Part shown: positions 12,462 through 15,755 of the stretch, piece by piece
Position numbering within the stretch: the stretch's first letter is position 1
Layout of the letters: the number at the start of each line of letters is the position of its first letter
DNA from: Roseivivax halodurans JCM 10272
GTDB taxonomy: Bacteria > Pseudomonadota > Alphaproteobacteria > Rhodobacterales > Rhodobacteraceae
NCBI RefSeq assembly: GCF_000521785.1
Contig: NZ_JALZ01000001.1
Coordinates: 310,001 to 374,000 of the forward strand
Reading direction: 5' to 3'
DNA: 64,000 bases
Translations under genes and position numbers: made by a program
Notes under the pieces: model-generated
The model's database searches: none
The model's input: the letters and a program-made list of their open reading frames with translations, nothing else
Told to the model about the DNA's origin: nothing

Positions 12462-12628
12462 GGGGGTGTCTCCGGTGCTTGGATATAGCGTTGCAGACGG
12501 AACGCAGGCTCCGCATGCCGGTTCCGGCCCCGCACGTCGCCGGGGCGTGGAAGGCGGTGGCGGAAGCCGCCGTAGGCACGCACGTTTTGACGCTGGCGTG
12601 GGCGCTCCGCCCGTGTTACCAGCACCTT

Positions 12629-12670
12629 ATGAGCATCGCAGCCATCATCATCTGCTGCATTACCTGCTGA
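12629..12670 (+). CDS. Cysteine-codon leader peptide upstream of cysS (13 aa)
   Basis: Mini-[16 protein letters not shown] ending in TGA: three of its last five codons are cysteine, including a tandem pair, and none of its residues resembles a protein domain. It ends 89 bp before the cysteinyl-tRNA synthetase start codon. There is no clear Shine-Dalgarno sequence; a TTGACG hexamer at 12587-12592 could be a -35 box placing the transcript start very close to the ATG, so it may be leaderless. I infer a ribosome-stalling sensor of cysteinyl-tRNA. The cluster of Cys codons is rare by chance and its placement before cysS is the main evidence. Confidence 0.75.
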
Positions 12671-12677
12671 CATCCGT

Positions 12678-12748
12678 CGGCGGGCCGCTCTTTTCGTTTT
12701 CTCCAGAGACCGAACTTGGTAAGCCCGCCGCGAGCGAGAGAGGCCCGC
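12678..12748 (+). promoter_or_regulatory. Mutually exclusive hairpins in the cysS leader
   Basis: CGGCGGGC at 12678-12685 can pair perfectly with GCCCGCCG at 12723-12730. The overlapping GCGGGCC at 12680-12686 can instead pair with GGCCCGC at 12742-12748, two bases before the cysS ribosome-binding site (GAGGA, 12751). The two pairings cannot coexist. No hairpin with an adjoining T-run is seen, so control of translation initiation seems more likely than transcription attenuation. No folding energies were calculated. Confidence 0.5.
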
Positions 12749-12759
12749 GCGAGGACGCC

Positions 12760-14124
12760 ATGGACATCCGTCTGACCAACACGAAGACCCGTGCGAAAGA
12801 GGTCTTCACGCCGATCGATCCCGAGAACGTGCGCATGTATGTCTGCGGCCCGACCGTCTACGACCGCGCCCATCTTGGTAACGCACGCCCGGTCGTGGTC
12901 TTCGACGTGCTCTTCCGGCTGCTGCGGCACGTCTACGGCGCGGACCACGTGACCTATGTGCGCAACTTCACCGACGTCGACGACAAGATCAACGCGCGGG
13001 CCGAGGCCACGGGGCGCGACATCGGCGAGATCACCGAGGAGACGATCGGCTGGTTCCTCGAGGACATGGGCGCGCTCGGCGCGCTCGAGCCGACCCATGC
13101 CCCGCGCGCCACGCGCTATATCGGCGAGATGGTCGCGATGATCGAAAAGCTGATCGCGGACGGGCATGCCTACGAGGCCGAGGGGCACGTCCTCTTCGCG
13201 GTCGAGAGCTTCGAGGCCTACGGCGCTTTGTCGGGCCGCTCGGTCGACGACATGATCGCGGGCGCGCGGGTCGAGGTGGCGCCCTACAAGCGCAACCCGA
13301 TGGATTTCGTGCTCTGGAAGCCCTCGGGCGAGGGGCTCCCCGGGTGGGACTCGCCTTGGGGCCGCGGGCGACCCGGCTGGCATATCGAATGCTCGGCGAT
13401 GGCGGATGCACTCTTGGGTGAGACATTCGACATCCACGGCGGCGGCAACGATCTGATGTTTCCGCACCACGAGAACGAGCTGGCGCAATCGTGCTGCGCG
13501 CATCCGGAGGGCGGTTTCGCTAAGGTCTGGCTGCACAACGAGATGCTGCAGGTCGAGGGCAAGAAGATGTCGAAATCCCTCGGCAACTTCTTCACCGTGC
13601 GCGACCTGCTGGACGAAGGCATCCCGGGCGAGGTGGTGCGGATGGTTCTCATGTCCGCGCATTATCGCAAGCCGATGGACTGGACCGCGCAGAAGCGGCG
13701 CGAGGCCGAGGCGGCGCTCCGCAAATGGTACGCGCTGGTGGCGGACGCACCGGATGGCGAAGGCCCCCATGCGGACGTGGTCGCGGCGCTGACGGACGAT
13801 CTCAACACTGCCGGCGCGATCTCGGTGCTCCACCAGCTGGCGGCCGCCGAGGACGGACCGGCGCTGCGGGCGTCGATGAAATTCCTCGGCCTCATGAGCG
13901 GCGCGGTCCCGGACTGGGCCTCGGCACCGGGCGCGGATCTGTCGCGCTGGGAGGACCGCCTCGCCTCGGCCCGCGCGCAGGCGATGGAGAGCAAGGACTT
14001 CTCCGAGGTCGACCGGCTCAAGGGCGTGCTCAAGGACGCGGGCGTCGAGGTGCGGATGTTGAAGGCCGGCGTCGAGCTCCTGCCCGGACCCGATTTCGAC
14101 GCGAGCCGGCTGGAGGAGGCGTGA
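12760..14124 (+). CDS. cysS: Cysteinyl-tRNA synthetase
   Basis: 454-residue class I aminoacyl-tRNA synthetase charging tRNA-Cys. HIGH motif as HLGN ([13 protein letters not shown]), KMSKS motif as KKMSKSLGN, zinc ligands in MYVCGPT, HIECSAM and MFPHHENE. Length is standard. GAGGA sits five bases before ATG 12760. It is preceded by a Cys-rich leader peptide and alternative hairpins, suggesting autogenous-like control by Cys-tRNA charging. The stop codon overlaps the cimA start by one base, so the two genes are translated from one mRNA. Confidence 0.98.
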
Positions 14125-15755
14125 TGGCCGAACGGCTCTATCTCTACGACACCACGCTGCGCGACGGGCAGCAGACGCAGGGCGTGCAGTTCTCGGTGGC
14201 CGAGAAGCAGAAGATCGCCGCGGCGCTCGACGATCTCGGGCTCGACTATATCGAGGGCGGCTGGCCGGGCGCGAACCCGACCGACAGCGCCTTCTTCGAG
14301 GAGGCGAAGCCGACCCGCGCCACCATGACCGCCTTCGGCATGACCAAGCGGGCAGGACGGTCGGCGGAGAACGACGACGTGCTTGCGGGCGTGTTGAACG
14401 CTCGGACGCCGGCGGTCTGCCTCGTCGGCAAGACCCACGATTTCCACGTGACAGCCGCGCTCGGCATCGGGCTCGAGGAGAATGTCGAGAACATCTCGGC
14501 TTCGGTGGCCCATTGCGTCGCGCAGGGGCGCGAGGCGCTTTTCGACGCGGAGCACTTCTTCGACGGTTATGCCGCGAACCCGGACTACGCCCTCGAATGC
14601 CTGGTCGCGGCGCGAGACGCGGGCGCGCGCTGGATCGTGCTCTGCGACACCAATGGCGGCACGCTTCCGGACCGGATCGCGCAGGTCATCCGCGAGGTGA
14701 TCGCCGCGGGCATCCCGGGCGAGCGGCTCGGCATCCACACCCACAACGACACGGAAACGGCGGTCGCGGGATCGCTCGCCGCGGTCGAGGCGGGCGCGCG
14801 GCAGATCCAGGGCACGCTCAACGGCCTCGGCGAGCGCTGCGGCAACGCCAACCTCATCTCGCTTCTGCCGACCCTACTGCTCAAGGAACCCTATGCGAGC
14901 GCCTACGAGACCGGGGTCAGCGCCGACGCGCTCTCGCGGGTCACGCAGGTGAGCCGGATGCTCGACGATGTCCTGAACCGCGTGCCGCTGAAGCAGCTCC
15001 CTTACGTGGGCGCGTCGGCCTTCGCCCACAAGGCGGGACTGCATGCGAGCGCGATCCTGAAGGACCCTTCGACCTACGAGCACGTCGAGCCGAGCCTCGT
15101 CGGCAACCAGCGGTTCATCCCGATGTCGAACCAGGCGGGGCAGTCGAATCTGCGCCGTCGCCTGATGGAGGCGGGGATCGAGGTCGCACCCGGGGATCCG
15201 GCTCTGGCGCGCATCCTCGAGCGGGTGAAGGAGCGCGAGAACGAGGGATATGCCTACGACACCGCGCAGGCCTCGTTCGAGATCCTGGCGCGAGAGGAGC
15301 TGGGCCGGGCCGCGGATTTCTTCGAGGTCAAGCGCTACCGGGTGACGGTGGAGCGGCGGAAGAACAAGTACGACAAGATGGTGACCTTGTCGGAAGCGGT
15401 GGTCGTCGTGAAGGTGGACGGCGAGAAGAAGCTCTCGGTGTCGGAATCGATGGACGAGACCGGATCGGATCGCGGTCCCGTGAACGCGCTCTCGAAGGCG
15501 CTCGCCAAGGATCTCGGACCCTACCAGGAGATCATCGAGGACATGCGCCTCGTCGACTTCAAGGTTCGGATCACCCAAGGGGGGACCGAGGCGGTCACCC
15601 GCGTCATCATCGACAGCGCGGACGGGCAGGGGCGGCGTTGGTCCACGGTGGGCGTGTCGCCGAACATCGTGGATGCGAGCTTCGAGGCGCTGCTCGACGC
15701 GGTTCGCTGGAAGCTGGCGCGCGACGTCGGCAGCGCGGCGAAAGCCGCGGAGTAG
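14124..15755 (+). CDS. cimA: (R)-citramalate synthase
   Basis: 543-residue enzyme of the isopropylmalate/homocitrate synthase family, condensing pyruvate with acetyl-CoA to citramalate for threonine-independent isoleucine synthesis. The catalytic TIM barrel begins with YDTTLRDGQQTQGVQFS and has the metal-binding HTHND motif (about residue 205) and GLGERCGNANL. The C-terminal regulatory LeuA-dimer domain (about 390-530) is present. The DTTLRDG start, overall layout and length match CimA more closely than LeuA; assignment among LeuA/CimA paralogues is by resemblance only. The ATG overlaps the cysS stop codon, coupling it to the cysteine-sensing leader operon. Confidence 0.88.
   Translation: MAERLYLYDTTLRDGQQTQGVQFSVAEKQKIAAALDDLGLDYIEGGWPGANPTDSAFFEEAKPTRATMTAFGMTKRAGRSAENDDVLAGVLNARTPAVCLVGKTHDFHVTAALGIGLEENVENISASVAHCVAQGREALFDAEHFFDGYAANPDYALECLVAARDAGARWIVLCDTNGGTLPDRIAQVIREVIAAGIPGERLGIHTHNDTETAVAGSLAAVEAGARQIQGTLNGLGERCGNANLISLLPTLLLKEPYASAYETGVSADALSRVTQVSRMLDDVLNRVPLKQLPYVGASAFAHKAGLHASAILKDPSTYEHVEPSLVGNQRFIPMSNQAGQSNLRRRLMEAGIEVAPGDPALARILERVKERENEGYAYDTAQASFEILAREELGRAADFFEVKRYRVTVERRKNKYDKMVTLSEAVVVVKVDGEKKLSVSESMDETGSDRGPVNALSKALAKDLGPYQEIIEDMRLVDFKVRITQGGTEAVTRVIIDSADGQGRRWSTVGVSPNIVDASFEALLDAVRWKLARDVGSAAKAAE

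Follow-up and report, generated by a model that had tools for sequence, protein, structure and literature searches.

A conserved cysteine- and isoleucine-codon leader upstream of cysS and cimA in Rhodobacteraceae, a candidate ribosome-mediated attenuator

Introduction

The coupled genes cysS and cimA of Roseivivax halodurans JCM 10272 are preceded by a conserved leader that we regard, with moderate confidence and from sequence comparison and computed folds, as a ribosome-mediated attenuator controlling the operon and sensing charged tRNA-Cys, probably together with charged tRNA-Ile. In the window (the whole stretch of 64,000 nucleotides analysed, whose numbering is used throughout and on whose + strand all features described below lie), promoter-like boxes are followed by a mini-ORF, an 89-bp stretch, cysS and cimA. 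Comparison among relatives supports the mini-ORF, its codons, the promoter position and two helices, here termed T and A; it supports a third, helix B, less firmly. A Cys-tRNA-sensing switch for cysS and cimA had been suggested in a first-pass annotation of this DNA. Its Cys-codon leader, mutually exclusive hairpins and their conservation are borne out below; what it lacked were the helix formed by the end of the mini-ORF and the Ile codons.

Results

Locus organization and the mini-ORF

The gene cysS (12760..14124) encodes cysteine--tRNA ligase (TIGR00435, 422 bits against a cut-off of 340) and cimA (14124..15755) encodes citramalate synthase, which serves Ile synthesis (TIGR00977, 594 bits against a cut-off of 450); the stop codon of the former and the ATG of the latter overlap as TGATG. 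Upstream, a mini-ORF of 13 codons and a stop (12629..12670) ends 89 bp before the cysS ATG at 12760, its coordinates, translation and spacing being correct as first annotated. The intervening bases have strong pairing potential and include the cysS ribosome-binding site, GCGAGG (12749..12754). The encoded peptide ends CCITC, the tandem Cys residues being codons 9 and 10 of 13. ORFs of 9-20 codons open at 238 ATG starts of the window, both strands counted; three of them have at least three Cys codons after Met, the mini-ORF being one of these.

To characterize the leader among relatives we located cysS in all 41 genomes of a set made up of the window's own genome with near and class relatives and, across the family, in 383 of 394 genomes, and found its start in 192 of 198 fetched loci. 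Mini-ORFs called by Cys and Ile content numbered 133 once L023, L067, L095 and L100 had been removed by eye as false; 121 are of a Rhodobacteraceae type (119 unique) and 12, of a Hyphomicrobiales type, were set apart. Composition in the 119 leaders is biased, the ORFs having been chosen partly by their Cys and Ile content, and a composition-blind choice anchored on a nucleotide motif gave the same picture. The motif was present in 118 of 136 family loci, 18 having no anchor; in 101 of the 118 an ATG ORF of 8-17 codons ends 5-13 nt before it, while 17 have none. The motif-anchored ORF never occurs in two frames, and it is identical to the composition-called ORF in all 100 loci with both calls.

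The 1303 codons after Met in the 101 motif-anchored leaders comprise 395 for Ile, 283 for Cys, 28 for Leu and 9 for Val; Ile and Cys account for 30% and 22% of leader codons, versus 4.0% and 0.9% in 71 cysS genes. Across the leader sequences compared, the Ile codons are conserved as strongly as the Cys codons. Counted from the stop in the 119 leaders, Ile occupies codon -3 in 111, Cys -4 in 83 and Cys -5 in 85, and the whole peptide has 13-14 residues in 104. The composition-called ORFs (1499 codons) hold 468 codons for Ile, 70 for Asn, 33 for Lys, 4 for Phe and 2 for Tyr; their Ile codons are more often AUU (266) than AUC (198), whereas cysS genes prefer AUC (984 versus 270 AUU). An excess of third-position change was absent over the last nine codons (0.45, 0.40 and 0.30 changes per site at codon positions 1-3), a count that neither proves nor excludes coding because Ile and Cys codons swap places. 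Three leaders are unusual (L213 of genome G142, L212 of G257 and L210 of G298): Cys is retained in MMTCCPSTPCCCRR and MNAPRTPDCCCIIR, where Ile is absent or reduced, and MATGRIQMSGIPC has one Cys and two Ile and preserves the downstream motif.

Distribution of the leader

A covariance model built from 95 leaders matched 321 of the 394 family genomes under stricter filters, with which weak matches are lost (73 genomes had no match); each matched in one place, except for one genome with two, and the window's own genome contains exactly one match. Twelve genomes with a weak, absent or fragmented cysS match, or with two leader matches (G061), were rechecked, and 10 of them had 11 matches. For these 11 matches, leader copies before other genes were considered and rejected: nine precede cysS. 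The match L214 ends with its contig, and L215, the second match in G061 (E 0.008), is probably chance, having neither cysS nor a mini-ORF. Alignment of the relatives, a check that the first-pass annotation had suggested, shows the mini-ORF, its Cys codons and two pairings conserved while other bases drift. A search of Rfam 15 gave no family match for the leader at the gathering score, two tRNAs being all that it matched in the window, and three weak, unrelated matches at 12500-12900.

Similar mini-ORFs, for example MKTVICIICRKIIR, occur in records named Rhizobium, Ensifer, Mesorhizobium, Bradyrhizobium, Phyllobacterium, Devosia, Stappia and Roseibium, which lie outside Rhodobacterales and whose order we take to be Hyphomicrobiales; in most, a TTGAC-like box precedes the mini-ORF and a T-rich tract follows it, and analogous pairings were discerned in them by eye. 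In a genome of the same genus as the window (G004, contig C38, 4341-5639), cysS occurs in an additional copy that is more distant (55% identity).

Linkage to cimA was found in all 81 leader loci scored: on the same strand within the flank in 77, and just past the flank in the other four (Ensifer, R. leguminosarum and two Mesorhizobium), where cimA shares contig and strand with cysS and stands 3.0-3.2 kb beyond it. Scoring covered those loci of L001-L138 with enough flank, three further leader loci being too short. Where no leader was called (48 loci, other classes among them), cimA is linked in 17, and in a class sample several loci with cimA nearby carry no such ORF; the leader thus accompanies cimA linkage, yet linkage also exists without the leader.

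Three alternative helices

Four regions of the leader are predicted to pair in three ways. In helix T (12663..12684) the last codons and stop of the mini-ORF (region 1) pair with GCGGG (region 2), 12663-12671 joining 12676-12684 in nine contiguous pairs with a loop of 4 (-14.2 kcal/mol). In helix A (12679..12729) GGCGGGC of region 2 pairs with GCCCGCC of region 3, 12679-12685 joining 12723-12729 (-21.5 kcal/mol). Helix B (12724..12754) joins region 3 to the cysS ribosome-binding site (region 4), which it covers, through 12724-12735 and 12743-12754 (-13.8 kcal/mol). The T-rich tract CTCTTTTCGTTTTC (12688..12701) that follows helix T is a possible terminator tail or pause site: helix T with its tail CCGCTCTTTT is the sole terminator-like match of a local scan (shuffles gave 0.1), and in 107 leaders the tract has a T fraction of 0.55, versus 0.12 downstream, with the longest T run at most 3 in 74.

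Helix tests used 107 of the 119 leaders, the other 12 having no clear region 2 or 3. When each sequence was paired with its own partner and with those of other species, own pairing was favoured for both T (p 1.1e-14) and A (p 2.7e-10) over all 107, and again among 58 leaders less than 62% identical (T, p 1.9e-8; A, p 2.8e-5; core of A, p 9.2e-4), these p-values ignoring shared ancestry beyond the 62% identity thinning. In the model alignment (95 of the 107, unusual lengths being left out) 87.6% of the cells of helix A are paired and 19 are double-change cells, values that, like the covariation score, were reached in 0 of 500 shuffles; its pairs changed on both sides (3) were matched by 41 of 500 shuffles and its further pair types (8) by 101 of 500. 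The outer pair of A is G-C in 49 and C-G in 24 of 107 leaders.

Helix B is the least secure of the three. Its own-versus-cross test gave p 0.18, ranging from 0.0092 to 0.42 over six settings, five of which were not significant. We retain it because a shuffled-spacer control, designed after the folds had been viewed, supports it: region 3 and the binding site are joined in the minimum-energy folds of 74 of 105 leaders, compared with 29-44 in ten runs with shuffled spacers, and the openness of the binding site is 0.397 in real leaders versus 0.455 with shuffled spacers (p 1.3e-6).

It had been proposed at first pass that one segment, at about 12678-12686, pairs with either of two downstream segments. 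Both pairings, with 12723-12729 (helix A) or with 12742-12748, are indeed possible; however, it is the former that shows compensatory changes, across 95 relatives. We therefore rejected 12742-12748, the conservation of which was judged by eye, as the conserved partner. The end of the mini-ORF, in helix T, is a third, upstream partner absent from that annotation. By eye, four leaders (L016, L049, L051 and L167) have an extra hairpin-like repeat between the mini-ORF stop and region 2. Two same-genus leaders (L005 and L008) keep the mini-ORF and lack the TGnTA block described below; their region 3, judged by eye, has diverged.

Switching in computed folds

Masking region 1 in 107 whole leaders lowered helix T from 0.50 to 0.01 and raised helix A from 0.17 to 0.69, so that on average the helices would switch; openness of the binding site went from 0.36 to 0.51, up in 69 leaders and down in 10. 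As openness rises in shuffled controls too (up in 50-60 of 107, versus 70 for real leaders), we take the mask scan as evidence for T and A, and less for B. In the window's own masked fold helix A does not form (near zero), site openness moves from 0.18 to 0.21 and the start codon from 0.47 to 0.90. Helix A is near zero there because 12742-12748 competes by 1.6 kcal/mol: with the mini-ORF masked, the fold using that segment has -36.8 kcal/mol versus -35.2 with A forced. Folded from region 3 onward, the window gives a site openness of 0.26, and 0.72 with region 3 occupied.

With a moving mask edge, numbered from the ORF end, helix T stays at 0.35-0.49 for edges up to -9 and falls to 0.12 at -6 and 0.015 at -3, while helix A holds at 0.68-0.70 from -3 to +6 and declines to 0.43 at +9 and 0.10 at +12; the effective edges run from -6 to +6. 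The leading edge of a ribosome lies 12-14 nt beyond the first A-site base, which would place the A site of an effective stalled ribosome on codons -5 to -2, where the conserved Cys-Cys-Ile lies. The Ile codons at -9 to -7 fall outside this stall window; they are too far upstream for a stall to cover region 1, so that in the static model the OFF form would be favoured.

Promoter-like sequences

When the 119 leaders are anchored on the mini-ORF ATG, position -35 is T in 98, -34 is G or T in 112 and -33 is G in 79; nearer the ATG, -14 is G in 70, -12 is T or A in 111 and -11 is A in 78, while the base directly before the ATG (-1) is C in 94 and T in 21. These boxes stand at the distance expected of a housekeeping promoter if the A of the ATG is +1; the mini-ORF thus looks leaderless, transcription probably starting on its ATG. 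In the window this putative promoter, P1, has a -35-like TGGCG (12594..12598) 20 nt before TGnTA, and a -10-like TGTTAC (12614..12619) whose TA ends 11 bases before the ATG. Of the 64 relatives having a P1 TGnTA, 37 carry TTG at this 20-nt distance; at that spacing TGG replaces TTG in the window, TTGGC being common among relatives, and a TTGACG at 12587-12592 sits 7 bases farther upstream, outside the P1 spacing. A generic promoter scan made no call at the leader region of the window, and no Shine-Dalgarno sequence was seen by eye before its mini-ORF.

A further promoter-like block, P2 (12697..12721), lies in the loop of helix A, with TT at 12697-12698 and TGGTA at 12717-12721; it resembles a second promoter with a GC-rich discriminator. 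TTYY stands exactly 20 nt before TGnTA, the spacing of P1, in 89 of the 92 leaders with TGnTA (87 of 87 in a separate count), the next best distance being 19 nt, in 48 leaders. The interval between them is variable in sequence and fixed in length, and it lies at a variable distance (8 to 21) from region 2; the TGnTA block is absent from 27 of the 119 leaders. Judging by its arrangement, P2 may be a second promoter, although G never occurs at its -33 (87 leaders).

Discussion

The mechanism we favor is as follows. Transcription would start at the A of the mini-ORF ATG, and the mini-ORF would be read as a leaderless message whose sensor is formed by the tandem Cys codons at -5 and -4 and the Ile codon at -3 from the stop. 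When these are read fast the ribosome would leave, region 1 would pair with GCGGG of region 2, and GCCCGC of region 3 would pair with the binding site (region 4), giving low expression; a ribosome stalled on the sensor codons would cover region 1, so that region 2 pairs with region 3, region 4 is left free, and cysS and cimA are translated. Helix T and its T-rich tail may additionally pause or terminate transcription. We infer leaderless transcription, stalling, the direction of the response and a response to Ile. The most elaborate version, in which a single leaderless peptide integrates the charging of tRNA-Cys and tRNA-Ile and, through a 1:2/2:3/3:4 switch over the binding site, governs translation of an operon that pairs the ligase for tRNA-Cys with an entry enzyme of Ile synthesis, while messages from P2, which lies in the loop of the ON helix, escape the switch, we consider unlikely as a whole.

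Several explanations compete with this mechanism. Classical transcription attenuation is how the authors of PMC8632094 read the uORFC-8-2 candidate, in the part of their text at hand. Applied here, with helix T as an intrinsic terminator that a stall on the Cys codons prevents and with A and B secondary, it is a possibility of real weight though short of probable; the single terminator-like match, the conserved T-rich tail and the covariation of helix T all agree with it. The T runs of that tail are short in most leaders, however, and helix A is conserved and covaries although it could not prevent such termination, since it forms only after the tail has been transcribed. A separate question is whether cysteine alone is sensed, the Ile codons serving an A/T-rich, unstructured leaderless start or slow decoding of AUU. 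The preference of the leaders for AUU and the misfit of the Ile codons at -9 to -7 with the stall window speak for this; the rarity of other A/T-rich codons (Asn, Lys, Phe and Tyr) beside 468 of 1499 for Ile, and the linkage of cimA in every scored leader locus, speak against it, and we hold the cysteine-only account to be possible if rather doubtful. That a chance ORF happens to stand beside chance hairpins in a GC-rich intergenic region can hardly be credited: short ORFs as rich in Cys codons do arise elsewhere in the window (three of 238, the mini-ORF included), but chance would not account for matches in 321 of 394 family genomes, for the same ORF being recovered by motif anchoring in 100 of 100 loci, or for the covariation.

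If the attenuator does read both amino acids, this would suggest a reason for the lasting association of cysS and cimA in these bacteria, and the leader would be a two-input attenuator that is compact, open to testing and leaderless at its start. Should the cysteine part alone hold, it would be an ordinary tRNA-ligase attenuator, already proposed in 2021. In either case a published motif is made testable as to which helix acts, the level of control and the role of isoleucine.

Among known systems, the mycobacteria offer one parallel: the part of PMC4633059 at hand describes leaderless Cys-rich uORFs upstream of Cys-related genes and proposes attenuation, and shares with the present leader the leaderless start, the Cys cluster near the stop and a Cys-related gene downstream. 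Cys leaders of mycobacteria also figure in PMC1262725, which in the portion at hand does not mention cysS and reports no conserved terminator hairpins, in contrast to the conserved helices found here. The mycobacterial uORFs differ further in their phylum and, as far as those accounts go, in the genes they precede (cysA2 and others).

In enteric bacteria, the attenuators of the thr and ilv operons each control a single operon through leader codons that report on two or more amino acids, and those operons make the amino acids sensed. The present leader differs in placing a tRNA ligase under one control with a gene that serves a different amino acid.

The closest relative is uORFC-8-2, described in a 2021 study that is reportedly by Brewer et al. 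As given in the part of PMC8632094 at hand, it is a candidate with 145 examples, found solely upstream of cysS in Rhodobacterales, with two stems, a U run and an AUG-started uORF that has Cys codons in tandem, for which ribosome-mediated transcription attenuation is proposed. The window element likewise lies upstream of cysS in a member of Rhodobacterales, has an AUG-started uORF with two tandem Cys codons, and shows a stem that leads into a U run on its 3' side. It differs in that its Cys codons are 9 and 10, where that text, which may count from another start, usually has them at positions 14 and 15, and in that similar leaders were found here in Hyphomicrobiales records as well. Since the window element matches that text as far as it goes, we file it with uORFC-8-2, and the novelty implied for a cysS leader at first pass falls away, the same element having been published in 2021; dual sensing, the leaderless start and the binding-site switch stand as our proposals. 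Among the matches listed in our literature searches, only PMC8632094 describes a cysS leader in this class, and the words isoleucine, cimA and leaderless do not occur in its main text. To the published description, in the part at hand, the present analysis adds the Ile codons and cimA, a probable leaderless start, a putative three-helix switch, and similar leaders in other named records.
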